Shown here in pieces: positions 58,642 through 64,000 of a stretch of DNA of 64,000 nucleotides. Made by a program: the position numbers and the translations under genes. The notes beneath the pieces are model-generated. The model had not been told where the DNA came from. It worked only from the letters and a program-made list of their open reading frames with translations, and did not search any database. Positions within the stretch are counted from its first letter, which is position 1, and the number at the start of each line of letters is the position of its first letter. This stretch comes from Rubrobacter taiwanensis. GTDB taxonomy: Bacteria > Actinomycetota > Rubrobacteria > Rubrobacterales > Rubrobacteraceae. The stretch spans positions 248,001 to 312,000 of the forward strand of contig NZ_SKBU01000006.1 of the NCBI RefSeq assembly GCF_004337705.1, given 5' to 3'.

Positions 58642-61086
58642 TCACCCGCCGCCCACGCATACACCGGCCCTGAGCAGCCGGAGGTCGAGAGAGGCACACC
58701 TCCCCGAGTCCCCCCCTCCGGTGTCCTCTTCCGCTCCGGAGGAGGGCTGCTCCTGAGCCGGGGGGCTCTCCTGCTGCGGAGGGGGCTTTTGCCCGGCCTG
58801 TCCCCCGCCGCCTGAAGACGAGGAGGGTTCTGGCCTGCCCGGCGAACCGCCGGTCTTATGAACCGGCTGCTGATGTGCGGGCTGTTGTTCCGGAGCGGAG
58901 CGCCGGACGGTACCGCCGCCCTCCGGCCGGTGCTGCTGAGACGGCGGGCCGTGGAGCCGGTTCTCCGATCCTCCCGCCACCGGCTGGCTCCGGGTTGCCT
59001 GGTCTTTCGGTGCGCTTGGAGGAGCCCCGCGCGGGCGTTCTTTGACCCCGACGGACGCATTGACGGCGGGGGCGGCCGACCGGCCGTGATCCGGCATCCG
59101 GCCGGTTCTGACGCCCCCGGATCTCTCCGCCGGAGGCGCGGGAGCGGCCCGCTCAGCCCGTGCACCGCCGGACGGGGCGCCGGGCTCCCTCCGGACGGAT
59201 CGAGCCGGTTCCGGAGAGGCCGGAGCCCCGTCAGACGCGGCCTGCGGCCCGCGGCTCCCGGAGAAGGCCGGAGGAGCAGTTCCGGTCTGCGCAACGGTCA
59301 CAGAGGGGGCGGGCCGCTCCCTCTCGCAGACCGCCGGTGACGGTATATAAGGTTCGCCGCCGGTCACACGTCCGCCGTTCTGCCGGAGCCACTCGAGCAG
59401 CGGGTAGGGGTTCTTGGCCCCCGAGGGGGCTTCGGCCCGGGTGTCGTTCACGTACCAGCCGAGATGCAGGTGAGGATCGAACGGCCCCAGGGTCCCCGGC
59501 ACGGAGGAGTAACCGGTGTGTCCCACATAACCTATGAGATCGCCCGCCCGGACCCGCTGTCCGAACTCCAGCGGGGGCCGGTCTACGAGGTGCGCGTAGT
59601 AGAAGACGTCTCCGCGCCGGATCGGTCCGACGCCGGCGGTGACCTCGATCATGGCCACCCAGCCGCCCAGATAGTTCCACCAGCCGGACTCGTGCCCCGA
59701 GACCGGACGTACGATACCGTCCGTTATGGAGTACACCGGGGTGCCCTCGGGAGCGAAGATGTCGGTCCCCTCATGCCCTCCGTTCGGACGCGGAGCCCCC
59801 CAGTCGTTGGTGTAGCTGTCCATGTAGCGGGCGGGCAGGGGGAAGACCGCGCTCCGGTTGCCGGTGACCTCCACCTCCGGGGAAGCGCGGTGGTCCGCAC
59901 CGACCACGGGAGCTGGACAGTAGCCGCCGCTCTCAGCCACATAGGGGATGGGCTCGCCGTTGCGGTAGGCCTCGGCCAGCTCCAGCACCCGTTGCACGTA
60001 CTCATGAGAGTTGTTGTAGGCGTAGAGGGCCCGGTGGTAGTCTTCCGGCGCTCCGGAGCGAACCAGATAGTTGGCGGCGCCGAAGATGGCATCCCTGTAG
60101 TGGCAGGGATCCCTAACCCCGTCCCCGTTCGCATCCACCCCGTAGATCCTCCACGTAGAAGGCAGGAACTGCATGGGCCCCACGGCCCGGCCGTAGACGG
60201 TCGGCGGTCCCTGCACACAGGTGTACTCCTGCCCCCCTCCATGCCCGCTCTCGACGAACCCGATGGCTGCCAGAACCGCCCAATCGAGGCCGTACTCCTC
60301 GGCGGCCTCCTCGTAGGCCCGCAGGTAGTTGCCGGGGATGGAGCCAGCGGCCCCGGAAGCCGATACCTCTCCGGGAACATCGCCGCAGATCTCCGCCCCT
60401 CCCGTAACCAGCTCCGCCAGCGAGGAGTTCACTATCTCGATCAGCGCGGGAAGATTGCCCGGATCGCCGATATTGTCGAGCCGGATCATCCGGCCGCTCC
60501 TGGCCACCGGCTCCCGTTCCGCAGCGACCGCCAGAGCCGGGGATGCGGAGCGCTGCGGGAAATCTGCGCGCAGCGCGCTGAGGCTCCGGGCCTCGACCCG
60601 CGCGTCGTCCAGCCGGAGATCTAACGGCCGCTCCCCCAGCCTCAGACATCCCCCGGAGATAGTGAACGAGAACCCGGTGGCTTCTATGGCGAGATCGTCC
60701 ATGTACACGGGCCCAGGGGCGGTCTGGTTCACGGCCAGCTGACCACCCCCGAGCTCCGGCGGCCGGGAGACGTTGGAGAGCCTCAGCCCGTAGATGGTCG
60801 CCCTCTGAAACTCGATCCTCGCCCGGAGAGGCTCCCCATCCCGGGGAGGACGCAGGGATATCCTGACCCCCTCACCCTCGATCCGCTCCGAGTTGATGAC
60901 GAATCCCCCGGAGATGCTCAGAGCTCCGGAACCGGAGTAGTCCGAGGAGAGGAGCAGCATGAGAGCCGCAACGACCGCCAGCACCGAAAGCCTGAGGACC
61001 CATCCCCGGCTCCTCCCCGATTCGAGAGGAGCAGAGACACCCTCCCGCACCGGCGGCCCGGACTGTCTCTGAAAGCGGGTGATCAC
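58642..61086 (-). CDS. Secreted two-enzyme wall hydrolase: DUF6230-like + lytic transglycosylase + M23 peptidase
   Basis: 814 residues. A signal/anchor helix (29-47) is followed by a beta-rich region (55-190) that resembles DUF6230 proteins such as the one at 61910 (SISGGFVINSERIEGEGVRISLRP; ARIEFQRATIYGLRLSN). A soluble lytic transglycosylase domain (252-375) has catalytic Glu279 in IGFVESGHGGG and GPMQFLPSTW. An M23 endopeptidase (415-560) has His438/Asp442 in GGHEGTDIF, YAHL and DPHLHLGW. The tail (590-814) is Pro/Ser/Gly-rich. It should cut both glycan strands and peptide bridges. It is the second gene behind the LPxTG gene. Confidence 0.88.
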   Translation of the reverse strand: MITRFQRQSGPPVREGVSAPLESGRSRGWVLRLSVLAVVAALMLLLSSDYSGSGALSISGGFVINSERIEGEGVRISLRPPRDGEPLRARIEFQRATIYGLRLSNVSRPPELGGGQLAVNQTAPGPVYMDDLAIEATGFSFTISGGCLRLGERPLDLRLDDARVEARSLSALRADFPQRSASPALAVAAEREPVARSGRMIRLDNIGDPGNLPALIEIVNSSLAELVTGGAEICGDVPGEVSASGAAGSIPGNYLRAYEEAAEEYGLDWAVLAAIGFVESGHGGGQEYTCVQGPPTVYGRAVGPMQFLPSTWRIYGVDANGDGVRDPCHYRDAIFGAANYLVRSGAPEDYHRALYAYNNSHEYVQRVLELAEAYRNGEPIPYVAESGGYCPAPVVGADHRASPEVEVTGNRSAVFPLPARYMDSYTNDWGAPRPNGGHEGTDIFAPEGTPVYSITDGIVRPVSGHESGWWNYLGGWVAMIEVTAGVGPIRRGDVFYYAHLVDRPPLEFGQRVRAGDLIGYVGHTGYSSVPGTLGPFDPHLHLGWYVNDTRAEAPSGAKNPYPLLEWLRQNGGRVTGGEPYIPSPAVCERERPAPSVTVAQTGTAPPAFSGSRGPQAASDGAPASPEPARSVRREPGAPSGGARAERAAPAPPAERSGGVRTGRMPDHGRSAAPAVNASVGVKERPRGAPPSAPKDQATRSQPVAGGSENRLHGPPSQQHRPEGGGTVRRSAPEQQPAHQQPVHKTGGSPGRPEPSSSSGGGGQAGQKPPPQQESPPAQEQPSSGAEEDTGGGDSGRCASLDLRLLRAGVCVGGG

Positions 61087-61115: not shown

Positions 61116-61703
61116 TCAGCCCCGCCGCCTCTGGAGCAAGATTAAACCGCAAACCCCGCCCAGCAGGACCAGCACCGCCAGCAGCGGCAGTACACCCCCG
61201 GTGTCCGGCAGAACTCCATCCCCAGGCGATTCCTCATACTGCAGCTCCCCGGCCACCGAAGACTCCCCCTCGAAACCGTCATCCCCCGGGAACGGCCCCG
61301 CCCCGCCCGCCTCCGGACCGGGACCCGAGAAGTGCGGCGGATCTTGATCCACCCCGCCAACCTCCGGCGGATCCTGATCCACACCGCCAACCTCCGGCGG
61401 ATTCTGCGAAGGTACCCCGAAACCACCCGGCACCTCTCCGCGCTGCGAGGGCTCATCCCCTCCCAGCCCCGGCACCTCTCCGCGCTGCGAGGGTTCATCC
61501 CCTCCCAGCCCCGGCACCTCCCCACGCTGCGAGGGTTCATCCCCTCCCAGCCCCGGCACCTCTCCGCGCTGCGAGGGCTCCTGCTGAAACACGCTCTGAG
61601 CCAGAGCCTCCCGCTCGCAGAAGACCACGAACACAAGAGCCGCAGCCAGCACGGCGCAGATCAAAGCCCCCCGAAAGCCGTACCCCTCTCGATATCCCCG
61701 CAT
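61116..61703 (-). CDS. LPxTG-anchored repeat surface protein
   Basis: 195 residues. The signal peptide (hydrophobic 14-28, likely cleavage after EALAQ) precedes repeats of EPSQRGEVPGLGGD (residues 42-93) and of PPEVGGVDQD (102-121), then an acidic spacer. The C-terminus is a sortase sorting signal: LPDTG at 165-169, a hydrophobic helix and QRRRG. The mature protein should be a short, rod-like stalk covalently linked to peptidoglycan. No binding domain is visible. No sortase gene is in the window. It precedes the wall hydrolase gene by 29 nt, so both form one operon. Confidence 0.82.
   Translation of the reverse strand: MRGYREGYGFRGALICAVLAAALVFVVFCEREALAQSVFQQEPSQRGEVPGLGGDEPSQRGEVPGLGGDEPSQRGEVPGLGGDEPSQRGEVPGGFGVPSQNPPEVGGVDQDPPEVGGVDQDPPHFSGPGPEAGGAGPFPGDDGFEGESSVAGELQYEESPGDGVLPDTGGVLPLLAVLVLLGGVCGLILLQRRRG
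61341..61400 (-). repeat. Two 30-nt tandem repeats in the LPxTG gene
   Basis: Two nearly identical units code for PPEVGGVDQD twice; a partial third (PPHFSG) follows. They are coding repeats, not a CRISPR array. Confidence 0.85.
61425..61580 (-). repeat. 42-nt tandem repeats in the LPxTG gene
   Basis: Three full and one partial copies of a 42-nt unit code for EPSQRGEVPGLGGD. The copies differ by only a few bases, so they are recent and likely to vary in number between strains. Confidence 0.9.
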
Positions 61704-61771: not shown

Positions 61772-61800
61772 TAAATAGCAGAAACCGACAAATTATGCAA
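61772..61800 (-). promoter_or_regulatory. Candidate promoter of the LPxTG-hydrolase operon
   Basis: Minus strand: TTGCAT (61800-61795), a 17-nt spacer and TATTTA (61777-61772). The conserved AGTTATCAT motif lies 3 nt upstream of the -35. An alternative -10 is CATAAT at 61797-61792, which would place the motif in the spacer, as in the other promoters of this locus. Confidence 0.5.
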
Positions 61801-61803
61801 CGG

Positions 61804-61868
61804 ATGATAACTAAATCGCTGGGAAGCGTGCCCGGGGGTTGCGATCAGTTATCATTTGATGCTATCAT
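61804..61868. promoter_or_regulatory. Symmetric divergent operator/promoter region of the DUF6230 locus
   Basis: ATGATAACT at 61804-61812 (motif reading left) and AGTTATCAT at 61847-61855 (motif reading right) are exact inverted copies, each flanked by GCGAT. The rightward promoter is TTGCGA (61839-61844), 18 nt, TATCAT (61863-61868). The same motif occurs at 63826. This is a likely binding site for the TetR regulator encoded at 62838. Confidence 0.6.
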
Positions 61869-61909
61869 TTGTTGCGATCGCCATTTGCGAGGAGAGGAGG
61901 CAGCTGGCT

Positions 61910-62494
61910 GTGGAGATGCACTATGACAGGAAGAGGCTATTCATAGCTCTCGGCGGGGGGTTTGGTGCGCTGGCGGCCATTTTGGTTGCGCTTTACATGG
62001 GTGGGGTAGCGCTGGCCGTTCCGCTTGGGGGGATTGGGGGGTTCAGGATTCAGGCGGACCGGGTGGAGTTGCAGGGGTTCTCGCTCACTCCGCGGATAGG
62101 GGACAACTCGCAACGGGAGGTTTCTCCTGCGGTAAGGAATCAGGCGAGGACGGCGATCATTGAGGGTCTGGTGGTTTCCAAGCGCATACCCATACCTGAG
62201 GGTGTACCGGGAGCTGGGGGGCGGGTCTTCGTGATCACCATCACGGGCAGCGAGGATCAGCCGGTAGAGATCCAGGGCCTCATTCAGGACGCCATGTATC
62301 TGCAGGCCAGATCTTTCCAAGCCGAGGCCCTTGAGCAGGACGAGGCTCCGCCGAGCCTGCGGCAGGGTTGGGAGCAGTCCTTCTACCAGCTCTCTCCGAG
62401 GGTGGTGATCATCGGGCTCGACAGCCAGAACAACTACCAGTTCGCGAACAGCATCACCATTCCGGGGCTGCAGGTCAACGCGAGGCTGGAGTAG
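61910..62494 (+). CDS. DUF6230-like exported/membrane-anchored protein
   Basis: 194 residues. A basic start and one hydrophobic helix (11-33) anchor or export it; the remainder is a beta-rich extracytoplasmic domain without cysteines (GGFRIQADRVELQGFSLTP; ARTAIIEGLVVSKRIPIP; VEIQGLIQDAMYLQARSFQAEAL). The layout and the following DUF6114 gene match the DUF6230-DUF6114 pair of Streptomyces, where some members were once labelled cholesterol esterase without good evidence. The function is unknown; binding a lipid or envelope component is a guess. GTG 61910 has AGGAGG 9 nt upstream. Confidence 0.75.
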   Translation: MEMHYDRKRLFIALGGGFGALAAILVALYMGGVALAVPLGGIGGFRIQADRVELQGFSLTPRIGDNSQREVSPAVRNQARTAIIEGLVVSKRIPIPEGVPGAGGRVFVITITGSEDQPVEIQGLIQDAMYLQARSFQAEALEQDEAPPSLRQGWEQSFYQLSPRVVIIGLDSQNNYQFANSITIPGLQVNARLE

Positions 62495-62496
62495 GC

Positions 62497-62841
62497 ATGC
62501 GGGGAAGCGCGAGTACAGAGCGGCCGAAGCTGGGCCTGACGCTGCTCACGCTGGCCGGGCTGCTGATACTCTGGATGCCGCTGGTCATCTACATTCAGGA
62601 GATCGGGCAGTTCAGCCTGGTCTTCGGCGGGGTGGTTATCGGGGGGATCGTGCTCGGCAGCGCGATACTGGGCTGGATCTACCCGCAGAGGGTCCAGATC
62701 TTCGGGGTGGTGGGCATGATCTTCTCCATACTCTCCCTGATCGGCGCGCTGGGAGGGCTGGTGATAGGAATGTTGCTCGGGATCGTCGGAGGGAGCCTCT
62801 GCGCCGCCTGGGCCCCGAAGAATCCCTCCGGCGAGGGTTAG
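62497..62841 (+). CDS. DUF6114-like integral membrane protein
   Basis: 114 residues, four hydrophobic helices with short loops. The last part, SLIGALGGLVIGMLLGIVGGSLCAAWAP, is the recognisable end of DUF6114 proteins. The ATG lies 2 nt after the DUF6230 stop with GGAG 6 nt upstream, so it is co-translated and probably works with it in the membrane. Its end overlaps the convergent tetR by 4 nt. Confidence 0.75.
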   Translation: MRGSASTERPKLGLTLLTLAGLLILWMPLVIYIQEIGQFSLVFGGVVIGGIVLGSAILGWIYPQRVQIFGVVGMIFSILSLIGALGGLVIGMLLGIVGGSLCAAWAPKNPSGEG

Positions 62842-63428
62842 CCGGTCTTCTTCCTGATCCGGCCGAACCCCAGAAGGACCCGCGCCCACTCCTTCTCCTC
62901 GGCCAGCGAGTAGAGGTCTATGCTCGCCGCAGCGGTGAGCAGCATCGCCTGGGCGAAGAGCAGCCGAATGACCTCCTCTTCCTCCCCGGTCGCCTCCCTG
63001 ACGTAGGCGTAGATCTCCTCCATCCGCCCCTGCACGGCACGCAAGACCTCAGGGTCCTTGGAGGCAGCGAACATCTGGATGAGCATGAGCAGCTCTTCCC
63101 GCCGGTTCATCAGCCCCACATAAGCCCGCTGTAGAGCCCGTACGGGCTCCTCAGGATTCCTCTCCACAGCCTCCCTCAACGCCGCCATAATGCGGTCGAA
63201 GACCCGCTGCCCGGCCTGCAGGAACAACCCCTTCTTGGAACCAAAGAGCCTTATCACATAAGGCTGGCTCACCCCCACCCGCTCGGCTATGGTATCCGTG
63301 GTCACACCGTGCAGCCCATAAGATGCGAACTCGACTATCGCCGCATCCAACACCATGTCCCGCCGCTCATCCCGGCTCATCCGAGTCCGGCGGGCCGATA
63401 CATCCCTCCGCCCCCGCGCCCTGCTCAT
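62838..63428 (-). CDS. TetR/AcrR-family transcriptional regulator
   Basis: About 196 residues. The N-terminal HTH reads MVLDAAIVEFASYGLHGVTTDTIAERVGVSQPYVIRLFGSKKGLF, the TetR consensus. The C-terminal helical domain (RALQRAYVGLMNRREELLMLIQMFAASKDPEVLRAV) binds an unknown ligand. A basic N-terminal arm (SRARGRRDVSARRTR) is unusual and may add DNA contacts. It is convergent with DUF6114 and is the best candidate for recognising the AGTTATCAT motifs. The start at ATG 63428 is uncertain; ATG 63380 is an alternative. Confidence 0.85.
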   Translation of the reverse strand: MSRARGRRDVSARRTRMSRDERRDMVLDAAIVEFASYGLHGVTTDTIAERVGVSQPYVIRLFGSKKGLFLQAGQRVFDRIMAALREAVERNPEEPVRALQRAYVGLMNRREELLMLIQMFAASKDPEVLRAVQGRMEEIYAYVREATGEEEEVIRLLFAQAMLLTAAASIDLYSLAEEKEWARVLLGFGRIRKKTG

Positions 63429-63498
63429 CTCCGCTCTAAACCCCCTTCTGCTAACCGAATCTCCTACTCTACCCTGAAAATATATCAGCCGTTGATGA

Positions 63499-63768
63499 TT
63501 ACAGGGCACGGACGTCCCTCTCCCCGAGCGGCCTCACCTCGAGGATGAGCTCCCAGGGATAGAAGCTGGCCACCTCTCCGGCCATGAACCGCCCCAGGGA
63601 TCTGGAACGATAGGCCCGCGCAAAGTATACCCCCCTGCTCGTAATCCCCCTCAACCAGCCCACAACCGTATACCGCTCCCCCGCAACCTCTATGAATTCC
63701 AGCTCCACAAGACTCCCGACAAACTCCCGCGAAACGTTCCTTCCCCGAAGCTCCACCGGACGCCTCAT
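63499..63768 (-). CDS. Small beta-rich hypothetical protein
   Basis: 89 residues with alternating hydrophobic strands (LVELEFIEVAGERYTVVGWLRGITSRGVYFARAYR; VASFYPWELILEVRPL), suggestive of an SH3- or PilZ-like barrel. No family is recognised. The ATG at 63768 has GGAGG 6 nt upstream. It is transcribed away from the motif at 63826, so it may belong to the same regulon as the flanking genes. Confidence 0.68.
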   Translation of the reverse strand: MRRPVELRGRNVSREFVGSLVELEFIEVAGERYTVVGWLRGITSRGVYFARAYRSRSLGRFMAGEVASFYPWELILEVRPLGERDVRAL

Positions 63769-63818
63769 TCCTTTCCTCCAAAGAGATCCCCACACATTCT
63801 ATACCGCGGTAGCGAGAT

Positions 63819-63847
63819 TTTACAAAGTTATCATCTAATGCTATCAT
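63819..63847 (+). promoter_or_regulatory. Promoter with conserved motif before the last gene
   Basis: TTTACA (63819-63824), 17 nt, TATCAT (63842-63847). The spacer contains AGTTATCAT at 63826-63834, then TAATGC, matching the spacer of the DUF6230 promoter at 61839-61868. Confidence 0.6.
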
Positions 63848-63885: not shown

Positions 63886-64000
63886 GTGAGAGTAACGAGG
63901 CTGGTTGCGGGTGGGGCGGCCTTCGGGGCGGGAACGTTGCAGGTGCTGGAGGTCTTTGCGCGGGGTCTCTGGGAGGCGGCGGGGAGGTCCCGGGTGGAGC
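63886..64000 (+). CDS. Unidentified protein, 5' part only
   Basis: The frame is open from GTG 63886 to the right window edge (38 codons: VRVTRLVAGGAAFGAGTLQV...). The N-terminus is mildly hydrophobic, and GGGGTGA lies 4 nt upstream of the GTG. It is expressed from the motif-containing promoter at 63819-63847. Too little is visible to assign a family. Confidence 0.55.
   Translation, partial: MRVTRLVAGGAAFGAGTLQVLEVFARGLWEAAGRSRVE

Follow-up and report, generated by a model that had tools for sequence, protein, structure and literature searches.

A shared palindrome as the probable operator of an adjacent TetR-family regulator at a cell-surface locus of Rubrobacter taiwanensis

Introduction

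Does the short sequence that recurs in the promoters of a cell-surface locus of Rubrobacter taiwanensis serve one dedicated regulator, and if so, which genes does this regulator reach? The window, that is, the whole 64,000-nucleotide stretch of DNA analyzed in this study, carries a DUF6230–DUF6114 operon, an operon encoding an LPxTG-type surface protein and a peptidoglycan hydrolase, and a tetR gene among them (Table 1). An earlier note, made from the sequence of the window, had proposed that the motif AGTTATCAT defines a TetR-controlled cell-surface regulon. A TetR-family gene located less than 200 bp from a divergent neighbor usually encodes the repressor of that neighbor (PMC3511530).

Table 1. 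Genes and candidate operator sites of the locus and of the lipid-catabolism genes to its right
Feature	Position	Strand	Details
Peptidoglycan hydrolase gene	58642..61086	-	SLT transglycosylase and M23 peptidase; PF01551, PF13406, PF01464; same operon as LPDTG protein
Surface-protein gene	61116..61703	-	LPDTG anchor at the C-terminus; repeats of the EPSQRGEVPGLGGD type; predicted target of operator C
Operator C, GTTATCATCCGTTGCATAA (reverse strand)	61793..61811	-	5' of LPxTG-protein/M23-hydrolase operon
Operator A, GTTATCATTTGATGCTATC	61848..61866	+	5' of DUF6230–DUF6114 operon; within the -35/-10 spacer, overlapping the -10
DUF6230 protein gene	61910..62494	+	PF19741, 27.0 bits (cut-off 27.5); predicted target of operator A
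DUF6114 membrane-protein gene	62497..62841	+	second gene of the operon; PF19609, 65.3 bits
tetR	62838..63428	-	TetR family, 196 aa; expected recognition helix QPYVIRLF, residues 55-62; proposed binder
Site D, ATCAGCCGTTGATGATTAC / GTAATCATCAACGGCTGAT	63484..63502	-	weak and doubtful; precedes the coding region of tetR
98-aa protein gene	63499..63795	-	5' of tetR; kept with tetR in G008 and G019
Operator B, GTTATCATCTAATGCTATC	63827..63845	+	between divergent membrane-protein gene (+) and 98-aa gene/tetR pair (-)
Membrane-protein gene (start)	63886..64000	+	start codon uncertain; runs past the window to L003:7515
SDR operon site	C49:320544		33 bp upstream; 19.4 bits
Alpha/beta hydrolase site	C49:321502		21.5 bits
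SCP2 site	C49:323913		weaker; 11.0 bits

Results

Exact copies of AGTTATCAT were found at the three places given by the earlier note (61804–61812 on the reverse strand, 61847–61855 and 63826–63834 on the forward strand), and these are the sole copies in the window, where shuffled sequences led us to expect 0.03 and none of 100 shuffles reached three. In the genome of 3.04 Mb, only six copies are present, three of them in the window within 2 kb of one another. A pattern scan of the genome for the 22-mer AGTTATCATNNNNTGCTATCAT that tolerated up to three mismatches hit the two forward sites and nothing else. The other three genomic copies of AGTTATCAT (C5, C7, and C32; L004–L006) were rejected because no palindrome surrounds them. 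The sites around DUF6230 in relatives (GTTATCATTTAATGCCAAC, GTTATCATTTGATGCCAAC, GTTAGCATCTGATGCCAAC, and ATTATCATCTAATGCCAAC) form an imperfect palindrome of 19 bp, approximately GTTATCAnnnGATGCnAAC; this palindrome, conserved in relatives, is the actual unit, in place of the 9-mer or a direct TATCAT repeat.

The quantitative ranking of candidate sites in the window with a matrix built from Nocardia, Kribbella, and Actinoplanes sites only placed operators B and A at the top (19.5 bits each; 30.0 bits each with the Rubrobacteraceae matrix), followed by C (14.8 bits), D (6.1 bits), and unrelated sites of at most 4.3 bits; the independence of this ranking is incomplete, since the sites of the other genera were gathered using the Rubrobacter matrix, whereas the k-mer test described below is independent. 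Orthologous sites are present in two genomes of the same family for operator A (L014:9899 and L015:9586) and operator B (L014:11976 and L015:11698), and operator C, which is nearly a copy of the Nocardia-type site GTATGCATCGACTGATAAC, is kept in G019 and G008 (L014:9839 and L015:9529). The degenerate fourth copy reported in front of tetR is present in form, but its score of 6.1–7.3 bits is close to the background (4.3–6.5 bits for the best unrelated site of the window), and site D is thus unsupported.

The promoter scan agreed with the earlier reading that two copies lie in a -35/-10 spacer with TATCAT serving as the -10: TTGCGA-18-TATCAT was detected at 61839–61868 and TTTACA-17-TATCAT at 63819–63847, both with TG preceding the -10. 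A divergent promoter, TTGTAA-18-TAGAAT, runs on the reverse strand from 63825 to 63796 towards the 98-aa gene and tetR, so that operator B is touched or adjoined by promoters of both strands.

Concerning the genes of the locus, the window TetR matched PF00440 with 45.6 bits (cut-off 24), which identifies an N-terminal TetR_N helix-turn-helix, and matched TetR proteins in the PDB. Its structural model (pLDDT 78) contains a helix at residues 55–62, expected to be the recognition helix, and the modeled fold matches TetR structures including FasR. The 98-aa gene is probably co-transcribed with tetR, and the membrane-protein ORF (L003:6853–7515) has homologues in G008 and G019. The DUF6230 and LPXTG names are partly alignment-based, as both model scores lie under their cut-offs (Table 1 for DUF6230; 13.5 bits against 15.9 for the LPXTG_anchor model on the surface protein). 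The DUF6230 protein, present in six other Rubrobacteraceae genomes, has an N-terminal helix followed by predicted strands; its fold prediction was unusable (pLDDT 42). The EPSQRGEVPGLGGD repeat protein with its LPDTG end is kept across four genera with a varying number of repeats. Residues ~59–137 of the hydrolase resemble DUF6230 (hhalign probability 76%, E 2e-5), and this N-terminal part may accordingly be DUF6230-like, a feature that, if real, would link the two divergent operons.

Within Rubrobacteraceae, 39 genomes were compared. Sites differing from GTTRKCATYWRATGMYAAC at no more than one position were found in all seven genomes that have a close tetR orthologue and in none of the 32 others, and such orthologues (at least 58% identity, always adjacent) occur only in those seven; the Fisher value for this co-occurrence, 6.5e-8, is indicative only, since the genomes are related. 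The positions of the sites vary by lineage, the strongest one standing before the M23 gene in the genera g2 and g11. What the computation shows is the presence of the sites, how they are conserved, and their association with the TetR subfamily of the window.

Several further sites were seen away from the cluster. In G008 (L108:3748) and G019 (L112:5173), an operator-like site precedes a secreted surface-protein gene far from the cluster, the end of the G019 protein reading as an LPDTG anchor; the best homologue of this distant protein in the genome under study is preceded by a weak site (9.8 bits). A second lipid-type locus of G013, which encodes an alpha/beta hydrolase paralogue (59% identical), carries sites of 18.5 and 17.6 bits (L110:5284 and L110:6271). 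Sites before a transporter gene (G001:C15 and G022:C74) were set aside, as they are common to two close genomes only.

The genes to the right of the window form a lipid-catabolism cluster, annotated with Pfam except where noted: an SDR, a FadB-like protein, a thiolase, an acyl-CoA dehydrogenase, an aldehyde dehydrogenase-like ORF (name based on the sequence alone), a second SDR, an alpha/beta hydrolase, an AMP-binding ligase, and SCP2. A scan of about a quarter of the genome (771 kb) with the matrix of the other genera, the remaining ~2.3 Mb being covered by patterns, yielded six sites of at least 14 bits, and five of them fall in 12 kb (C49:309793–321520); two of these five are the SDR operon and hydrolase sites of Table 1. 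The sixth (C49:87537, 17.6 bits), between genes for a TTT-type transporter and a GntR-type regulator, is probably unrelated and was not seen in relatives. Sites preceding the SDR genes are also present in G019, G008, and G010; the hydrolase site recurs in G022 and, as an identical sequence, in G001 and G013. The acyl-CoA synthetase/ligase gene is preceded by a site of ~10–12 bits in our genome (weak, ~10), G019, and G008. Since the sites before the SDR and hydrolase genes, with a weaker one before SCP2, have counterparts in relatives, the regulon appears to be lipid-catabolic as well.

When the TetR alignment was used to scan named bacterial genomes, 77 relatives (36–45% identity) were obtained in Nocardia, Kribbella, and Actinoplanes; in most of the examples read, their tetR is paired divergently with an MFS transporter gene. 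In 76 of them, the best match to the Rubrobacteraceae matrix in the stretch taken (at most 20 kb) lies within 220 bp 5' of tetR. A count made without the Rubrobacter motif or matrix gave GTTATCAG as the commonest 8-mer in these 220 bp, at 76 of the 77 loci compared with 0.11% of background tiles. A predicted palindromic operator near the regulator's own gene is seen both for the window TetR (operator B) and for 76 of the 77 relatives. The recognition helix starts with GVSQPYVI in all 77, as in the window TetR, a likeness that is partly due to selection because this string was one of two patterns used in the scan.

Four Rubrobacteraceae paralogues reading GVSQPYVY (L027, L028, L029, and L030), in which Ile59 is replaced by Tyr, have TTAGTA...TACTAA in the spacer before tetR, the half-sites GTTAGTA/TACTAAC lying between -35 and -10. 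The operator type thus appears to follow the recognition helix, as expected if the window TetR is the binder, this being a correlation among few paralogues. As the change from GTTATCA to GTTAGTA parallels that from Ile to Tyr, a one-residue specificity switch is indicated, and the pairing would provide a simple DNA-specificity rule.

Discussion

These data support the reading, to which we assign a probability of about 0.86, that the motif is the operator of the adjacent TetR, which would repress the surface units, the neighboring lipid-catabolism units, and itself until released by a lipid ligand. The proposal of a TetR-controlled cell-surface regulon is thereby upheld as regards TetR control, on the basis of phylogenetic footprinting, co-occurrence with tetR, the autoregulatory sites of the relatives, and the specificity change of the paralogues, and is widened as regards its scope, which is not limited to the surface because lipid-catabolism genes are included.

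From this comparative evidence, we infer physical binding, repression, a ligand, and a physiological role. A TetR dimer would bind between and over the -35 and -10 of the DUF6230–DUF6114 promoter at operator A, of the divergent membrane-protein and 98-aa/tetR promoters at operator B, and of the LPxTG/M23-hydrolase operon at operator C. It is further predicted to bind before the SDR–ALDH–acyl-CoA dehydrogenase–thiolase–FadB-like genes and the alpha/beta hydrolase gene, and probably also before the SCP2 and acyl-CoA synthetase genes. The regulator would most likely repress these targets as well as its own gene and come off the DNA on binding a ligand derived from lipids, for which a long-chain acyl-CoA is a plausible candidate.

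Could the motif be a promoter element only, composed of two TATCAT hexamers, an extended -10, and a spacer, with no dedicated regulator? The preceding TG and the TATCAT at the -10 of A and B would fit such an element; however, it is the palindrome and not the hexamers that is conserved, the relatives' GTTAGCATCTGATGCCAAC being without TATCAT, and the motif is missing from the other promoters of the genome while tracking one tetR gene, which makes this explanation highly improbable. It is also improbable that a different regulator binds the sites and that the neighboring TetR is a bystander. The genomes bearing the sites do share other genes, and in the g2 and g11 genomes the cluster has a second TetR nearby. 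Yet among the 77 relatives, which belong to other families, 76 have the sites 5' of tetR, beside different genes; the type of operator shifts together with the recognition helix; and no other protein of the genome matches the window TetR at E <1e-20.

An activating or dual role of the window TetR, like that of FasR of Mycobacterium tuberculosis, has more in its favor and is still unlikely. The best NCBIfam model is that of this activator, and the leading fold matches include FasR structures; on the other hand, the equivalog cut-off is clearly missed (NF053731, 55.2 bits against 330), so the window TetR was not assigned as FasR, and an operator between and over -35 and -10 occupies a repressor position. 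The targets of FasR on DNA are inverted repeats, and the protein responds to acyl-CoAs with a chain of at least C16 (PMC7382501). It activates fatty-acid synthesis genes, whereas the sites of the window TetR precede catabolic and surface genes; compared with fas-acpS, the sites found, with ~2.3 Mb scanned by patterns, precede surface and beta-oxidation genes.

Among known systems, the TetR/tetA paradigm and regulators such as SCO3367 and SCO7222 share with the window TetR the PF00440 helix-turn-helix, a palindromic operator located between divergent genes, a site over the promoter, and likely autoregulation, and differ in that the present operators are many, spread across surface and lipid-catabolism units, with a sequence unlike those listed for these repressors (PMC3511530). 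Because of the repressor position, the divergent arrangement, and the likely autoregulation, the classical TetR scheme fits. FadR-type TetR regulators of Thermus and Bacillus share the TetR fold (3ang, 5gpc) and act on fatty-acid degradation genes, before which operators were also found here (SDR operon and hydrolase); in sequence, the window TetR is a weak match to FadR (NF053878, 24.4 bits against a cut-off of 200).

The suggestion of an acyl-CoA-like ligand is drawn from the target genes and the loose likeness to FasR, whose model is the best NCBIfam match and whose fold agrees. The TetR–MFS (DHA2-like) pairs of Nocardia, Kribbella, and Actinoplanes, for which no name was found, share the helix start, the half-site GTTATCA, and two operators 5' of tetR; the neighbor there is an MFS transporter, whereas here it is surface and lipid genes. 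As the regulator–operator pair stands beside a transporter in Nocardia-type bacteria, the ligand is not necessarily a fatty acyl-CoA.

Systems of this kind are well known, but the regulon itself is apparently undescribed: in the papers searched, no description of the regulon of the window TetR was found. The present study therefore offers a regulator, an operator, and a target list for a lineage without such a regulon in those papers, and envelope functions together with lipid catabolism provide a functional context for two domains of unknown function, DUF6230 and DUF6114. We tentatively consider that a lipid-sensing TetR might couple peptidoglycan remodeling and LPxTG display to fatty-acid or hydrocarbon catabolism in Rubrobacteraceae, in which case DUF6230–DUF6114 and the hydrolase with its DUF6230-like N-terminus could form an envelope system that takes up or handles hydrophobic substrates.

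The DUF6230–DUF6114 loci examined in other actinobacterial families were without a GTTATCAnnnGATGCnAAC-type operator. Two such operons of family f19 (L107:4917 and L100:7799) carry different upstream palindromes, TTTACCAAATCTTGGTAAA and ATTACCAAGTTTTGGCAAA.
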